This document shows positions 34,475-42,058 of a DNA stretch of 64,000 bases, piece after piece. This stretch comes from Armatimonadota bacterium (lineage in GTDB: Bacteria; Armatimonadota; Armatimonadia; Armatimonadales; Armatimonadaceae): positions 1 to 64,000 of the forward strand of contig JAPLCP010000145.1 in assembly GCA_026392155.1 (NCBI GenBank), in the 5' to 3' direction. The notes under the pieces are model-generated. The model had not been told where the DNA came from. It searched no databases and saw nothing but the letters and a program-made list of their open reading frames with translations. Numbering within the stretch: position 1 is the first letter of the stretch; each line of letters starts with the position of its first letter. The translations under genes were made by a program, and so were the position numbers.

Positions 34475-35726
34475 GCAGAGCCTCCACTGCGTCCAGACAC
34501 TTTACCGACACGCCCTGGTTGCGCTCGATCAGGCCACGGGCTTTTTGGGCATTCTGTGCTTTTTCCTCCGGCGAGAGCGTGAGCCAGCGACACACGGCCT
34601 CCGCAAGCCCCACCGCATCCGTGACTTGCTCCCCCGCGCCTTCACTGATGGCAAGCGCGGCAATATCGCGCTGGTTGTTCATATTGGGGCCAAAGAGCGC
34701 TGGGACGCCCTGTGCCAGCGGCTGAAAGACGCTCTGACCGCCCCAGGGAGCCAGAGAGCCGCCAATAAAAGCGACATCGGCGATGGCATAAGCGCGGCCC
34801 AGCTCACCAAACGTATCGAGAATAAGAGTCGCGCCATGCTCACCTTTGCTTCGCTGCACAGAGCCAGGCAAGTGCGCCTTTACGGCTTCCACGCGCTCTA
34901 AGTGCCGAGGCGCTACGATCAGCCTTAGCTCGGGGAAGCGCTCTCGCACGCGCTTTGCGGCCTCAATAATCAGCACTTCTTCGTCGGGAATGCCATCTTT
35001 TCCATCGCGAGTCGAGCCACAGATCCAGACCAGACCGCCCTCAGGAATGCCCAGCTCCGCCCGAAGTTTTACGCGCTCCTCAATGCTGAGCATCGTCGCC
35101 GACTCATCGAACTTCGTGTTTCCAAAAGTCCGTGTGCGCTCTGGAGGCGCTCCCACTAAGCCCGCCCGGCGCGTGTCTTCGTCAGACTGCATCGCAAAGA
35201 GATCCACGCACGCGAGGCCACTCGCCATCATCCACTGCGCCTTGAGCCCACGCCGCAGGCCTTTATCGGAGATGCGCCCATTGAGCACGGCGACCTTGGC
35301 TCCCTGCCGCTTGGCAGCCTGAAGAAAGTTCGGCCAGATCTCCCACTCCATCAGCAAGACCGCATCGGGGCGCACCGCCTTCAGTGCCTGCGCCACTGCC
35401 CAGGGAAAGTCCAGCGGAAAGTAGGCCACCGCCGACGCACTGGCAATGCCTTGCGCCACCTCACGCCCACCTCGGGTAGTCGTGGTCAGGAGCAAGAACG
35501 CCTCTGGGTGCCGCTTGCGCAGCTCACGCAAGATTGGCTTGGCTGCCATCACCTCACCCACAGAGACCGCATGCACCCAGAAACGCAGCGAGCCCTCGCC
35601 TGCTTTTGTATAGCTCCCCCAGCGCTCGCGCCAATGTGCAGGGTCTTCCTTTCCCGTCGCCAGCCGGAAGGCGTAGTAGAGGAGCAACAGTGGCGAGAGA
35701 AGAAACAGCAGCAAGTTATAGATCAC
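34464..35726 (-). CDS. waaA: 3-deoxy-D-manno-octulosonic acid transferase
   Basis: The 420-aa protein has a membrane-anchoring N terminus (VIYNLLLFLLSPLLLLYYAF). GT30 motifs follow: 'WVHAVSVGEVMAAKPILREL', 'FPLDFPWAV', 'LMEWEIWPNFL' and 'FIGGSLAPWGGQSVFQPLAQGVPALFGPNM' (in part). It attaches Kdo to lipid A. The GTG at 35726 overlaps the stop of the TOPRIM-like gene (GTGA); a start 4 codons earlier is possible. Co-translation with the ATPase/TOPRIM pair is unexpected. Confidence 0.94.
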   Translation of the reverse strand: MIYNLLLFLLSPLLLLYYAFRLATGKEDPAHWRERWGSYTKAGEGSLRFWVHAVSVGEVMAAKPILRELRKRHPEAFLLLTTTTRGGREVAQGIASASAVAYFPLDFPWAVAQALKAVRPDAVLLMEWEIWPNFLQAAKRQGAKVAVLNGRISDKGLRRGLKAQWMMASGLACVDLFAMQSDEDTRRAGLVGAPPERTRTFGNTKFDESATMLSIEERVKLRAELGIPEGGLVWICGSTRDGKDGIPDEEVLIIEAAKRVRERFPELRLIVAPRHLERVEAVKAHLPGSVQRSKGEHGATLILDTFGELGRAYAIADVAFIGGSLAPWGGQSVFQPLAQGVPALFGPNMNNQRDIAALAISEGAGEQVTDAVGLAEAVCRWLTLSPEEKAQNAQKARGLIERNQGVSVKCLDAVEALLGR

Positions 35727-36346
35727 TCGTTGCCCCACCCCTGTGCTTCAAGAGTTAAGCGGACATCTTCCTGGAGACGCTGAAAAGCACTGAGGCGTAA
35801 GAGAGGGCTAAAGTCATCCGTGAGCTGTGTGATGCGCCGCATCGCCGCAGGAATTTGTTTATTGAACTCGTCAAGCCTTCGCCCTCTCTGGCCACTAGCT
35901 GTACGCAGTGCCTCACGCAACACGGTTTTAGGATCGGCCAGATTTTCGAGCTGTGCAAGCGTTGGTAGATTTAATGCCGCTCGACTATTTCGGTTTCCTG
36001 CTGCCTGTCGTAAAACGCCTATATCAAAGAGAAGCCAAGCTTCCATCATGCGTACAGGGACAACATAAATACTAGGCACTTCGACTTTTGCATCTGTGAG
36101 AGCAACCTGAATTTCTTCGTAGCGCCGAATGGGTTCTTCGCGGTCGGAGTCGCGATGAATAAAAAGTAAATCACAAGGAGCATCTTCCATAGCATTACTA
36201 ATTTTCTCTGCTAAGCCTTGCCCTCTACGATAGGCAAACTCCCCTGTAAAAATGTGCTTCGTGTGCCTTTGAATAGTCCAGTCAAGAATTGGCAGTAGTG
36301 CCGCATCCGTTGAGCCTTCCGTTAAAAAGGTGTAGCGTAGCATCAT
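35723..36346 (-). CDS. DUF4276-like (TOPRIM-related) protein, putative defence effector
   Basis: The protein has 207 aa. The opening 'LRYTFLTEGSTDAALLPIL' (E-G-x-x-D) and 'CDLLFIHRDSDREEP' (D-x-D) are the TOPRIM-style acidic pattern of DUF4276 and related nuclease domains. 'YVVPVRMMEAWLLFD' is also typical. The start at 36346 gives a 4-nt ATGA overlap with the ATPase gene, so the two proteins are co-made. ATPase plus TOPRIM pairs (OLD-like, PARIS AriA/AriB with DUF4435) act in phage defence; membership here is inference. Composition is AT-richer than the flanks. Confidence 0.8.
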   Translation of the reverse strand: MMLRYTFLTEGSTDAALLPILDWTIQRHTKHIFTGEFAYRRGQGLAEKISNAMEDAPCDLLFIHRDSDREEPIRRYEEIQVALTDAKVEVPSIYVVPVRMMEAWLLFDIGVLRQAAGNRNSRAALNLPTLAQLENLADPKTVLREALRTASGQRGRRLDEFNKQIPAAMRRITQLTDDFSPLLRLSAFQRLQEDVRLTLEAQGWGNE

Positions 36347-37770
36347 CCTAGAGTAGGGCTCCAAACAAGTTGCCCGACAGCATTGGGTTCTAAATAGGCT
36401 TGTTCTAAGGGGCGCAGATACCGCATTAACTTCCCTTTACTAATACTAGGGGTTTGTGGTTCGGCACTTGCTCGCCAGGTTCCTTCAATACAAGAGAGAC
36501 TTAGATGCTGGTAGCGCTGTCCTTCTTGCTGGCTTGAGATTAGCTCAGCAGCGAGAAGGCAATCGCTGGGAACTAGTCCAACTACTGTAGGAGAATGAGT
36601 ATTAATAATCACTTGACGTAGCGGATTGTGTTCATCAATGGGACGCGAAGTGTCCACAGCAATAGCCCGCAGCAAGTTTAGCATAGCCTCGATTCGTTCA
36701 GGATGAATACCATTCTCAGGCTCTTCCAAGCAAAGTACACCATGAAACTCAGGATCAGCCTCTAAAACGGCTAGGGCTAAAAAACGCAAAGTTCCATCCG
36801 AGAGTGCACGCGCCGAGTGCTGTGTGCCATCAGCGCCTGCTGCCCACAGAGTGAGAATATCTCGCTTGTCGTCGCGCTCGATTCCTACCTCACGAATCTC
36901 ACGTACAAGCTCGCTCACTCGCAGAGCAATACGATCATACACGGAAGTCTCATCACGCTCTCCTTCAGGCGTACGATAGCTCTGTGCAAGCCGATAGAGA
37001 GTCGCCGCGAGATGCTCACCACTTGGCGTCAAATGCCCAGGTGTATTGATCTCATCTACTTCACGCAAAGCTGTAGGCTCTAACTGCAAAAGGGACCAAG
37101 AAGACATCTCATTTCTAGCAAGAACTGCCGTTCTGTACTCCGCAGCATTTGCCAGATGAATCAGAGTTCGGGGCAACGTTCGCGCAGGACGAGGCGTTGG
37201 ACGACCACCACCAATACCGCCGCGATCTTGATGAAGACGGATCTCAATTTCCCCGTTTGCATTCTCAAGTGTAGAAATCAAGGGATCAGTACGTCGACCA
37301 TTAATTACCGAATCACGCCAGCTTTTTGAAGGCTTAAAGGGCAAATTTACTCTAGCATCACTTTTATTGATATGAACTAAAGACTCGTACTTCACCTCAA
37401 GGCTACTGTCTATTTCGCGGTAACCCAGCTCTAACGTGTAACGCAAAAAAGTCATGCTGGCAACGGCACGCTGTCCCAAATCATCGTCTCCCTCTTTAGG
37501 GACGATCATTTCTGCCTCAAAGTACATTGTTTGTGCATATTGGTTTCCGAATCGATGGAAGAGCGAGCGTGCATCTGGCCTTCGATTGTCTCGTACAGAC
37601 TTAGCAGCCCCAAGCAAAGTGTCGCTTGCCAAAGCACTTAAGAATCGTATGGCATCGAAGAGGTTCGACTTTCCTACTCCATTTGCTCCCGCGATACAGG
37701 TGAAAGCCCCAAAGCGTACATCCACGTCCACAAGATTTTTAAAACCACGTACCTTTAGCCTTGTTAGCAT
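36343..37770 (-). CDS. AAA_15/AAA_21-type ATPase, putative defence sensor
   Basis: The protein has 475 aa with an OLD/RecF-like ABC ATPase core. The N-terminal 'LTRLKVRGFKNLVDVDVRFG' and Walker A 'GANGVGKSN' lie near residues 28-36. The signature is 'ALSDGTLRFLAL', Walker B is 'VLCLEEPENGIHP', and the switch His is in 'IINTHSPTVV'. There is no TOPRIM in the same chain; it is the next gene, overlapping by 4 nt. Sampled lines are near 45% GC against about 70% in the neighbouring tsaD, hinting at transfer. TACAAT ends 6 nt before the ATG. Confidence 0.88.
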   Translation of the reverse strand: MLTRLKVRGFKNLVDVDVRFGAFTCIAGANGVGKSNLFDAIRFLSALASDTLLGAAKSVRDNRRPDARSLFHRFGNQYAQTMYFEAEMIVPKEGDDDLGQRAVASMTFLRYTLELGYREIDSSLEVKYESLVHINKSDARVNLPFKPSKSWRDSVINGRRTDPLISTLENANGEIEIRLHQDRGGIGGGRPTPRPARTLPRTLIHLANAAEYRTAVLARNEMSSWSLLQLEPTALREVDEINTPGHLTPSGEHLAATLYRLAQSYRTPEGERDETSVYDRIALRVSELVREIREVGIERDDKRDILTLWAAGADGTQHSARALSDGTLRFLALAVLEADPEFHGVLCLEEPENGIHPERIEAMLNLLRAIAVDTSRPIDEHNPLRQVIINTHSPTVVGLVPSDCLLAAELISSQQEGQRYQHLSLSCIEGTWRASAEPQTPSISKGKLMRYLRPLEQAYLEPNAVGQLVWSPTLG

Positions 37771-39459: not shown

Positions 39460-39462
39460 TAC

Positions 39463-39502
39463 AAAATAAGACAGCCGCGCCCCCTTGCGGTTGCGCGGCT
39501 GT
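39463..39502 (-). terminator. Intrinsic terminator after the sigma-factor gene
   Basis: On the minus strand a perfect 10-bp stem (ACAGCCGCGC/GCGCGGCTGT, loop 12 nt) is followed by CTTATTTTG. It lies about 20 nt after the sigma-factor stop and marks the operon end. Confidence 0.8.
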
Positions 39503-39522: not shown

Positions 39523-40224
39523 TTAAGCGAAGGCGAAGCGGCCTGCGTCGGCATGCTCTTTGAGGCGCTTGAGGCCACGCTCGGCCTGCTTGCGCACACA
39601 CGCGGCATTGGTGCCCAGCTCCTCGGCGATCTCATCGTGGCTGGCTCCCTCGGCACGGCGAAGAACGACCAGTGCCTCGTTGGGCTTGAGTAGCTTGAGG
39701 AGCGCCTCGCGGATCGCTCGCTGCTGAATCCGCGCGATTACGCAGTCCTCGACGCGGGTCTCTAGGTCTACGATATCGCGGGTCTCCCCCTCTTCGGTAT
39801 CATCGAGTGAGAGCGCCTGCTTGTCTTGGCCACGGCGAATTAAGTGGCGCTGGCGGTCGATGAGCAGGTTGGTCGCGATCCGGGCGATGTAGGCTCCGGT
39901 GGGCTCTGTGCTGGCTGGGCTCTGGAGCAGACGGATCACCACTTCCTGGGTGAGATCTTCTAGCTCGTTGGCCAGAAGCGTCCGTGCCTGTCGCGCGAGC
40001 GTCGCCGCGCAGAGTGTCTTAACCTGGCGGCGTAGCTGCTCACCTGCAAGATCACGCTCGCGCTTGGTGCTTTCGGTGCTACGGACGACCGCAAGTAGCT
40101 CTTTATTGGTCTGCCGCTTCGGTGCGGCTGGGGCTGTCGCTGTGATGGCGGGGGCAGGTTTAGGGCTGACCTCGTCGTGCCATGCTTTTAGTCCCTGGAG
40201 TGCATTTAGCGCCTGTACATTCAT
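39523..40224 (-). CDS. Sigma-70-family (ECF-like) RNA polymerase sigma factor
   Basis: The protein has 233 aa. A Pro/Ala-rich N-terminal extension of about 40 residues precedes region 2 ('ANELEDLTQEVVIRLL...YIARIATNLLIDRQRH') and region 4 ('LKPNEALVVLRRAEGASHDEIAEELGTNAACVRKQAERGLKRLK', in part). There is no sigma region 1.1 or 3. AGAAGG lies upstream of the ATG. It is the last gene of an operon with a TPR protein and a tiny exported peptide; no classical anti-sigma factor adjoins. Confidence 0.92.
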   Translation of the reverse strand: MNVQALNALQGLKAWHDEVSPKPAPAITATAPAAPKRQTNKELLAVVRSTESTKRERDLAGEQLRRQVKTLCAATLARQARTLLANELEDLTQEVVIRLLQSPASTEPTGAYIARIATNLLIDRQRHLIRRGQDKQALSLDDTEEGETRDIVDLETRVEDCVIARIQQRAIREALLKLLKPNEALVVLRRAEGASHDEIAEELGTNAACVRKQAERGLKRLKEHADAGRFAFA

Positions 40225-40276
40225 TGTATTTAGCCTTCTCTCTGGATCTTAGAATCTTTAGCTACAAAAGAAACGA

Positions 40277-40390
40277 CTACCCGCCACCCTTGGTTGGTGG
40301 AGGGGGGGAGGTCACATCGGCATGAGCAGACGGAATCATAGTGATAGCCAGCAACAGTGCGGCAGCGATCAGACTTGCAACTTTTTTCAT
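40277..40390 (-). CDS. 37-aa exported micro-peptide
   Basis: The frame begins with an ATG that overlaps the stop of the TPR gene (ATGA) and has GGGAGA upstream. The product starts MKKVASLIAAALLLAITM and ends the signal region at 'PSAHA', giving a textbook signal peptide with an A-x-A site after residue 24. The predicted mature part is only DVTSPPPPTKGGG (13 residues). The sigma-factor gene begins 52 nt later. The size, export signal and place between a TPR protein and a sigma factor suggest an extracellular signal, but function is unproven. Confidence 0.7.
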   Translation of the reverse strand: MKKVASLIAAALLLAITMIPSAHADVTSPPPPTKGGG

Positions 40391-41094
40391 TTATTTTCTC
40401 CCAAAAACAGACGTAGTGAAGAATACTTCGCCACATACTCTGCTAAAACCTCCTGCGACGGTGCGGCTTTTTCCACACGTCGCCAGAGGCGTTGCGCGCT
40501 CTCTTTTTCTCCCAGCTCCAGCTTCACATAGGTCCAAGGGCAGAGCAGCTCAAGTCGCTCGTGCTCCGCTAGCGCGTTGGCTAGCTCATACTCTCCCTCT
40601 GCCAGTTTTAGGTAGGCCCGATCTCCTGTGCGACGGTAGCGCACCAAACGGGTGTAGCCCAGGTTCTGCCGCAAGATGCTTGCCACCTCACGGGTCAGCC
40701 ACTCCCCATCGGGCTCGATCGCACAGAGCCGAACGAAGATTCCCTCGGCCTTCTCAATGCTCTCTGCGGTATTGTCCATTAAACAAACAATCGCCAGCTC
40801 CACCCAGACCCGGAAGTAGAGCGGATCGTGCTCCAGAGCCTCTTCGTAGAACCGCATCGCCGCAACGGCGTCTTTGTCCTCGTGGAGCGCTCGGTAGCCC
40901 TCACGGTAGCACTCCAGAGCCGCTACATTGTCCGAGTGATCGGGCCAGATCGTCCCCTGGGTTCGCTGCCCAATCAGTAAAACGGGAAAGCGCTCGTGAA
41001 AAGCCGCCGAGAGGGGCTCCTCCTCTGCCTGCCCTTCCGGGAACAGGCGGGGAAGGGCGGTTAGGTTTTCGTCCACACTCACAGCGCTCTTCAT
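40387..41094 (-). CDS. TPR-like protein upstream of the micro-peptide and sigma factor
   Basis: The 235-aa soluble helical protein has TPR-like units ('AALECYREGYRALHEDKDAVAAMRFYEEALEHDP', 'VWVELAIVCLMDNT', 'YLKLAEGEYELANALAEHERLEL', in parts). CAGGA lies about 6 nt before the ATG. It overlaps the micro-peptide by 4 nt. TPR proteins can bind peptides, as in RRNPP-type receptors, but no DNA-binding domain is visible, so a receptor role is only a hypothesis. Upstream is a 91-bp gap to the divergent hisG. Confidence 0.8.
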   Translation of the reverse strand: MKSAVSVDENLTALPRLFPEGQAEEEPLSAAFHERFPVLLIGQRTQGTIWPDHSDNVAALECYREGYRALHEDKDAVAAMRFYEEALEHDPLYFRVWVELAIVCLMDNTAESIEKAEGIFVRLCAIEPDGEWLTREVASILRQNLGYTRLVRYRRTGDRAYLKLAEGEYELANALAEHERLELLCPWTYVKLELGEKESAQRLWRRVEKAAPSQEVLAEYVAKYSSLRLFLGENK

Positions 41095-41185
41095 TGCTTT
41101 CCTGATTGGTTAGACGTCAGGCGAGTAGGAAATGTGACAGAACTTAAAAATTATTTTTTCAGGCCGCGATATACTGACCGACGAT

Positions 41186-42058
41186 ATGAAATTGAAGCTT
41201 GGCTTGCCTAAAGGCAGCCTACAAGAAGCCACTTTTAAGCTCTTCGCGCAGGCCGGTTGGAGCGTGCGTGTGGACTCCCGCTCCTACCATCCCGTGATAG
41301 ATGACCCAGAGATCGAGGCGATTCTGATGCGTCCTCAGGAGATCCCGCGCTACCTAGAGGACGGTGTGATTGATGCGGGCCTCACGGGCTGGGACTGGAT
41401 CAAGGACAACGGCGTAGACGTAAAAGAGGTCTGTGAGCTGACGTACTCGAAGGCGACGCGCAACGCGATGCGCATTGTCCTAGCCGTTGCCGCCGACTCG
41501 GAGATTCACTCCGTCAAAGATCTAGAGGGTAAGCGCCTCGCCACCGAGTACGTGCGTCTGACGAATAAGTGGCTGGAAGAAAACGGTGTCGCGGCCCATG
41601 TGGAGTTTAGCTGGGGCGCGGACGAGATGAAAGTCCCGCAGCTCGTGGACGCGATTGTCGTCAACACCGAGACCGGCTCTAGCCTCAAGGCCCATAAGCT
41701 GCGCATCGTCGGCGACCCGATCCTCACGTCCACCACGCGCTTTGTTGCCAATCATGCCGCCTGGACAGACCCTGAGAAGCGTGCCAAGATCGAGAGCATG
41801 GCGATGCTGCTCACCGGCGCTCTGAATGCCGGAGCCCTGGTCGGACTCAAGCTCAATGTCGCCAAAGACGACTTCGATGCCGTGATCGCCCAGCTTCCTG
41901 CCCTCAAGAAGCCCACCGTCAGCCCCCTCTGGGGCGATGAGGGTTTTGCCGTGGAGATCATCATTGAGGAGCACCTAGCCCGCGAGCTTATCCCACGCCT
42001 CAAGCGCGCCGGTGCCAGCGGCCTCGTCGAGTACCCTCTCAATAAAGTCGTCTACTAA
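41186..42058 (+). CDS. hisG: ATP phosphoribosyltransferase (long form)
   Basis: The 290-aa protein catalyses the first step of histidine synthesis. 'MKLKLGLPKGSLQEATFKLFAQAGW', 'AGLTGWDWI', 'ATEYVRLTNKWLEENG' and 'LVDAIVVNTETGSSLKAHKLRIV' are conserved. The C-terminal about 75 residues form the ACT-like regulatory domain of the HisG_L type, so it should be inhibited by histidine and not need HisZ. TATACT lies 10 nt before the ATG, predicting a leader of only a few bases. The 3' end overlaps the SDR gene by 4 nt. Confidence 0.96.
   Translation: MKLKLGLPKGSLQEATFKLFAQAGWSVRVDSRSYHPVIDDPEIEAILMRPQEIPRYLEDGVIDAGLTGWDWIKDNGVDVKEVCELTYSKATRNAMRIVLAVAADSEIHSVKDLEGKRLATEYVRLTNKWLEENGVAAHVEFSWGADEMKVPQLVDAIVVNTETGSSLKAHKLRIVGDPILTSTTRFVANHAAWTDPEKRAKIESMAMLLTGALNAGALVGLKLNVAKDDFDAVIAQLPALKKPTVSPLWGDEGFAVEIIIEEHLARELIPRLKRAGASGLVEYPLNKVVY

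Follow-up and report, generated by a model that had tools for sequence, protein, structure and literature searches.

A conserved TPR protein, exported peptide and ECF-like sigma factor cassette in Armatimonadota: a candidate signalling module

A cassette of three genes, which encode a TPR-like helical repeat protein, a small exported peptide and an ECF-like sigma factor, is real and is conserved within a family of Armatimonadota, and it seems to be a signalling module that has not been described before. No earlier description of an operon of the order TPR, exported peptide and sigma factor was found in the open-access literature. It is plausible, if somewhat short of probable, that the operon works as an autoregulated ECF module without a classical membrane anti-sigma factor, in which the TPR protein would be the cytoplasmic partner and the peptide the signal or feedback arm. 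The cassette lies in a window of 64,000 nucleotides, the whole stretch of DNA that was analysed, on contig C213 of the draft genome (4.77 Mb) of an Armatimonadota bacterium (GCA_026392155.1, JAPLCP010000145.1; G000 hereafter).

The cassette is encoded on the minus strand, and in the order of transcription it consists of a promoter, the TPR gene, the exported-peptide gene, the ECF-like sigma gene and a terminator (Table 1). A first, sequence-only reading of the window had claimed this order of TPR gene, 37-codon exported-peptide gene, ECF-like sigma gene and terminator, and all of these were found. The claimed overlap of the TPR and peptide genes is seen as an ATGA at 40387-40390, which is common to the TPR stop and the peptide start. 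Likewise, the terminator deserves to be called strong, as it is a G+C-rich hairpin of 10 bp with a U-rich tail behind it, and its fold (71 nt) reaches -30.8 kcal/mol against -18.2 +/- 3.0 for shuffled sequences (z = -4.2). The interval first noted, 39523-41094, excludes both the terminator, which lies below 39523, and the promoter at 41113-41139, and a consensus scan for terminators and promoters listed neither of the two. The order from promoter to sigma gene, together with translational coupling, suggests that the three products would be made together.

The upstream neighbour is a divergent hisG (recognised by eye) on the plus strand, which begins at 41186, and the downstream neighbour of the sigma gene is an EI24/CysZ-like gene; hence, no membrane anti-sigma gene adjoins the locus. 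In the relatives, the neighbours of the cassette are different genes, none of which was recognised as an anti-sigma gene. The statement that an anti-sigma gene is missing is thus correct for the neighbours seen, but the TPR protein itself could be a soluble anti-sigma or co-sigma factor. Elsewhere in the window (35723-37770, minus strand), a gene for an AAA_21/AAA_15 ATPase (475 aa) overlaps a DUF4276-like gene (213 aa), and the pair matches the PADLOC candidate defence system HEC-01 (HEC-01A, 6e-93; HEC-01B, 4e-24).

Table 1. Features of the cassette in the window, and predicted target pairs of this genome (G000) and its sister species.
Feature	Position	Strand	Remarks
ECF-type promoter, TGTCACA-N16-CGTC (predicted)	41113..41139	-	18 nt 5' of the TPR start codon
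TPR-like helical repeat gene, 235 aa	40387..41094	-	Product cytoplasmic; proposed sigma partner
Exported-peptide gene, 37 aa (37 codons), MKKVASLIAAALLLAITMIPSAHA followed by DVTSPPPPTKGGG	40277..40390	-	From ORF list and conservation
Sec signal peptide MKKVASLIAAALLLAITMIPSAHA, AHA cleavage motif	40319..40390	-	From sequence inspection
Predicted mature peptide DVTSPPPPTKGGG, 13 residues	40280..40318	-	From sequence
ECF-like sigma gene, 233 aa	39523..40224	-	Regions 2 and 4
Intrinsic terminator	39461..39502	-	Hairpin at about 39471-39502, then U-rich tail
Predicted target: exported low-complexity protein, 433 aa	L137:1823-3176 (G000:C139); L138 (G001:C4)		Promoter closest to that of the cassette
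Predicted target: exported protein, 158 aa			
Predicted target: exported protein, 210 aa			
Predicted targets: two PD40 beta-propeller lipoproteins			Internal start 12-26 nt 3' of the site assumed, as the longest ORF begins further upstream
Predicted target: 275/282-aa protein			Sites within the upstream ORF, at a distance of 114/87 nt
Predicted target: second ECF-like sigma gene	L098 (G000:C151, about 475-1154); L129 (G001:C3)		TGTCACA-N16-CGTT, 11 nt 5' of the start

Orthologues of the TPR and sigma genes were sought by whole-genome searches, and the sister species and most of the family have them. The exported peptide sits between the two in all nine intact loci of the family, which belong to five genera, and in G004 the locus is divided over two contigs with the peptide present. 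The three-gene order, whose search in relatives had been proposed as a check, therefore occurs in nine family loci and in three distant families. In the latter (G063, G190 and G215), the TPR gene likewise precedes a small exported ORF, behind which a sigma gene stands, and the peptides are unrelated; the sigma domains were confirmed in G063 and G215, and G190 matches the general sigma model below the cut-off. True members of the TPR family were found in 13 of 291 Armatimonadota genomes, and an enlarged TPR profile retrieved beyond these 13 only generic TPR proteins. The ATGA overlap recurs in six of the eleven loci measured, distant G215 included, and the distance from peptide to sigma gene ranges from 5 to 107 nt (5-8 nt within one genus). 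The genes that flank the cassette vary from genus to genus, and the conservation of the order amid differing neighbours indicates that the cassette is self-contained and not an accident of one genome.

Two variations in the surroundings of the cassette were also observed. In the Chthonomonas-like G063 (L067/L074), two related sigma genes flank the pair of TPR gene and small exported ORF. Three species of one genus carry a large regulator-like gene, with weak similarity to AAA, TPR and BTAD, directly 3' of the cassette (L075:6551-8800, L076:1669-4578 and L078).

The peptide had been claimed to have a complete signal peptide and a predicted mature part of 13 residues, and inspection agrees with this, as a charged start, a hydrophobic core and an AHA cleavage motif are present. 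A charged start, a hydrophobic core and a cleavage motif are likewise visible in all relatives, whose peptides in the family measure 37-66 aa, and inspection along with a crude rule-based test recognised a signal peptide in nine of nine family loci. The chance of a signal-peptide-like ORF is small, since it arose in 0.2-2.8% of dinucleotide-shuffled TPR-sigma gaps per locus, against nine of the nine real loci. A conserved C terminus had been expected, but the conserved part of the peptide is its mature start (D-L-T-G-P). In the family this start is recognisable as D-[L/V]-[T/S]-G-P behind the alanine of the cleavage site, followed by prolines. The mature starts are DVTSPPPPTKGGG, QVQGPPPGKEKGGG, DLTGPKAPPPPPSQSK, DLTGPKPPPSNAGGR, DLTGPKPPKLSS..., DLTGPKDTPPPPPPP... 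and DLSGPGAPPPPPPGSKG (three species), and over the cleavage site relatives read, for example, (A)DLTGPKPPP..., (A)DLSGPGAPPPPPPGSKG and (A)QVQGPPPGKEKGGG.

With a leave-genus-out profile, each held-out peptide scored above 8742 background ORFs. The peptides of G005 and G010 differ by one replacement and ten silent changes, and pN/pS is 0.27 between G005 and G009, with a weaker value of 0.50 between this genome and G001. Judged from such substitutions, the peptide frame is under purifying selection in close pairs. Loss of the frame in relatives that keep the flanking genes had been named as the finding that would speak against the peptide, and the frame is kept in all nine intact family loci. 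The motif peptide occurs once per genome and always at the cassette locus; in a search of the phylum with the peptide profile, matches beyond the nine loci were weak and resembled ordinary signal peptides.

The sigma protein matches Sigma70_r2 and Sigma70_r4_2 of Pfam and TIGR02937, a general ECF/sigma-70 model, all above their cut-offs. It has regions 2 and 4 only, as befits an ECF-like member of the sigma-70 family, and it carries no regulatory C-terminal domain, the chain ending soon after region 4. Its predicted structure has two helical parts, with stretches of low confidence in the linker and close to the N terminus. There are 18 sigma-like matches in the genome.

The naming of the TPR protein stands on its fold, and the family call is weak: the match to Pfam TPR_14 is just below the cut-off (22.8 bits against 23.5), and there is no NCBIfam match. 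An AlphaFold2 model shows a helical solenoid over residues 57-231 with good confidence, and its best fold matches in the PDB belong to TPR proteins of a generic kind, with RapI and RapH further down among many such matches. An N-terminal motif, FHER..LIG.RT..G.WPD (residues 28-52), lies outside the solenoid. Its conservation equals that of the repeats, but the model assigns a confident structure to little of it, which suggests that this segment is a candidate for partner binding. A single-sequence search of the genome contigs with the TPR protein gave no match, and the relatives named by an alignment-based search were all from Armatimonadota.

The promoter of the operon is conserved along with its genes. 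The pattern TGTCAC[A/G]-N16-CG[T/A] precedes the TPR gene, with the spacing exact, in all but one of the 12 loci where the upstream DNA could be read, and these 11 include the distant G063 and G215. The variants are a C for the first T in G002 and G010 and a CGA in the -10 element of G063, and in G190 the motif is absent within 200 nt. In shuffled upstream regions, the strict motif arose in 1-16 of 4000 per locus (0.03-0.4%). A conserved ECF-type promoter 5' of the TPR gene implies autoregulation, and we infer that the sigma factor of the cassette itself would read this promoter, which would amount to positive autoregulation.

The same pattern points to a wider predicted regulon. It was counted 27 times in this genome and 40 times in the sister species, against 11 in each for the reversed pattern, although reversal makes a less than perfect control. 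In addition to the cassette, the two genomes have at least seven orthologous gene pairs that share the motif near their gene starts, and most of them encode exported proteins or lipoproteins (Table 1). The 433-aa protein is of an unknown family and has a tail rich in Gly, Ser, Pro and Arg; homologues are present in 8 of the 10 family genomes that bear the cassette and in neither of the 2 family genomes without it. The promoter motif is absent from its homologues in other genera, hence the gene is not a target throughout the family. Further predicted targets in relatives include two homologues of the 158-aa protein in G004 and a Pro/Arg-rich exported protein in G005, G009 and G010, all with the motif 5' of the gene. 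The second ECF-like sigma factor may be either a regulator that acts downstream or one more reader of the motif. Since these promoters may be read by it or by further factors, the assignment of the regulon to the sigma factor of the cassette is provisional. In three species, exported Pro/Arg/Ser-rich low-complexity proteins (L163, L165 and L166; about 525 aa if complete) have the conserved promoter TGTCAC-N17-CGTA.

As far as genomic patterns can tell, the conserved promoter and the predicted export-related regulon are stronger evidence of function than the analogy with Gram-positive signalling that the sequence-only reading, which had noticed neither of the two, drew. In the mechanism that we favour, the sigma factor would read TGTCAC-N16-CGT promoters at its own operon and at genes for exported proteins, and the TPR protein would bind it in the cytoplasm, in trans, as an anti-sigma or co-sigma partner. 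The peptide would be co-translated, pass through the Sec pathway and be cleaved behind AxA, and the mature D-L-T-G-P... peptide may then act as the extracytoplasmic signal or feedback arm and so provide the input. The parts of this mechanism that the sequences support are the gene order, the conservation of the peptide, the terminator, the conservation of the promoter and its occurrence at orthologous export genes, and it is further favoured by the nine family loci that keep the order at changing genomic addresses. Against it, other ECF factors of the genome may read the same promoter, the motif is absent in G190 and at the homologues of the 433-aa protein in other genera, and the peptide may serve as a product and not as a signal. 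A fuller version, in which a diderm bacterium uses a Sec-exported peptide that is sensed by the TPR protein in trans and thereby controls the ECF sigma factor, its own operon and an envelope or secretome regulon, is possible and is put forward tentatively. Of the possible peptide signalling unit first suggested, the unit, its order and the peptide frame have stood, and a role of the peptide as signal, its binding to the TPR protein and its re-import are hypothetical.

The composition of the predicted regulon bears on what else the peptide might be. The mature peptide is short, nearly uncharged, proline-rich and free of cysteines, and exported proteins of low complexity with much Pro, Arg, Gly and Ser abound in the predicted regulon. 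Hence, the peptide may be a plain exported product, such as a small proline-rich component of the envelope or matrix, which belongs to the regulon while the TPR protein controls the sigma factor independently. The lack of sequence conservation between distant families agrees with such a generic small exported protein, and it fits the rapid divergence of a signal as well. However, a structural product would not usually overlap the TPR gene in translation and keep a fixed position between regulator and sigma gene across twelve genomes, and the single copy per genome and the very short mature part also speak against it; on balance, this explanation is on the unlikely side. It is unlikely, too, that the cassette senses export itself, with the TPR protein binding the unexported precursor, so that a jam of Sec would let the pre-peptide accumulate, free or activate the sigma factor and adjust the envelope genes. 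The signal peptide is indeed the feature common to all cassettes, the three distant ones included, exported proteins make up most of the predicted regulon, and a diderm cell would need no re-import, but the conserved D-L-T-G-P behind the cleavage site would then be superfluous.

Prolines also raise the question of a leader or arrest peptide, whose polyproline would stall ribosomes and control the translation of the sigma gene. The peptide of this genome has PPPP, those of G004, G005, G009 and G010 have longer runs, and the coupling to the sigma gene is tight in the genus with 5-8 nt. Nevertheless, G008 has only PP and G190 no proline run, the variation of the peptide-sigma distance over 5-107 nt argues against a common RNA switch, arrest would require neither the conserved signal-peptidase site nor the hydrophobic core, and almost all of a 37-codon chain would still sit within the ribosome, which together make arrest very unlikely. 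A small secreted antimicrobial or toxin peptide accompanied by its regulators would be small, exported and divergent between families as observed, but the mature part is short and nearly uncharged, it has neither cysteines nor a leader of the type of known bacteriocins, and no transporter or immunity gene is apparent at the locus, so this idea is hardly credible.

For many ECF factors no anti-sigma partner can be recognised, and their control is often only proposed. For the autoregulated module favoured here, the cassette offers the TPR protein in trans as a conserved candidate partner and an exported micropeptide, whose mature start is defined, as a candidate signal. It adds a predicted promoter and a few predicted targets, and hence the mechanism is directly testable. 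Like the canonical operons of ECF and anti-sigma factors, the module would be autoregulated and would pass information from outside the cytoplasm on to an ECF factor, and it differs from them in that no membrane anti-sigma gene is present at the locus.

The operon promoter matches the published target motif of ECF41 (SigJ type), TGTCACA, 16+/-1, CGTC (PMC3426412), and stands before the operon of the cassette with a spacer of 16 nt. Ownership of the promoter by ECF41 is nevertheless unlikely, as the sigma factor of the cassette is without the C-terminal SnoaL_2 extension, the cassette has no COE gene, and no full SigJ-type protein over the cut-off was found in this genome. In ECF42, a TPR extension is essential for sigma activity (PMC8999054), and by analogy the TPR protein may be a soluble sigma partner; in both, an ECF sigma factor that lacks an anti-sigma factor is linked with a TPR module (about 200 residues in ECF42). 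The TPR module of the cassette is, however, a separate upstream gene in all relatives and not a C-terminal fusion, and the exported-peptide gene separates it from the sigma gene. If the fuller version with the sensed peptide is true, it would be a further route to ECF control beside anti-sigma factors and fused domains.

The RRNPP systems (Rap, Rgg, NprR, PlcR and PrgX, with ComRS) are quorum sensing systems of Bacillota. The cassette resembles them in that a cytoplasmic protein of TPR fold adjoins a gene for a small Sec-exported peptide, and it resembles ComRS in that the output is a sigma factor as well (ComX). On the other hand, the cassette occurs in a diderm phylum with the ECF-like sigma gene inside the operon, its TPR protein is short and showed neither an HTH nor an effector domain of the Rap type nor a family match, its peptide is conserved at the mature start, and peptide binding and re-import are hypothetical here. 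One SBP_bac_5 protein in the genome might belong to an oligopeptide permease of the kind that re-import would need. RRNPP_detector looks for a propeptide of 10-100 aa beside the receptor gene, for Sec export and for a receptor of 250-500 aa (PMC10075063), and also for receptor matches to TPR models of the peptide-binding type, for which the TPR protein is borderline. The overlapping propeptide and its signal peptide agree with the former two, but the TPR protein of 235 aa is below the receptor range (233-290 aa for the ORFs of relatives, whose starts are uncertain), and membership in RRNPP was rejected on this length. The analogy with Gram-positive signalling thus survives as a logic of TPR protein and exported peptide and not as membership, and if the peptide is the signal, an RRNPP-like logic would operate outside the Gram-positive bacteria with a sigma factor as its output.
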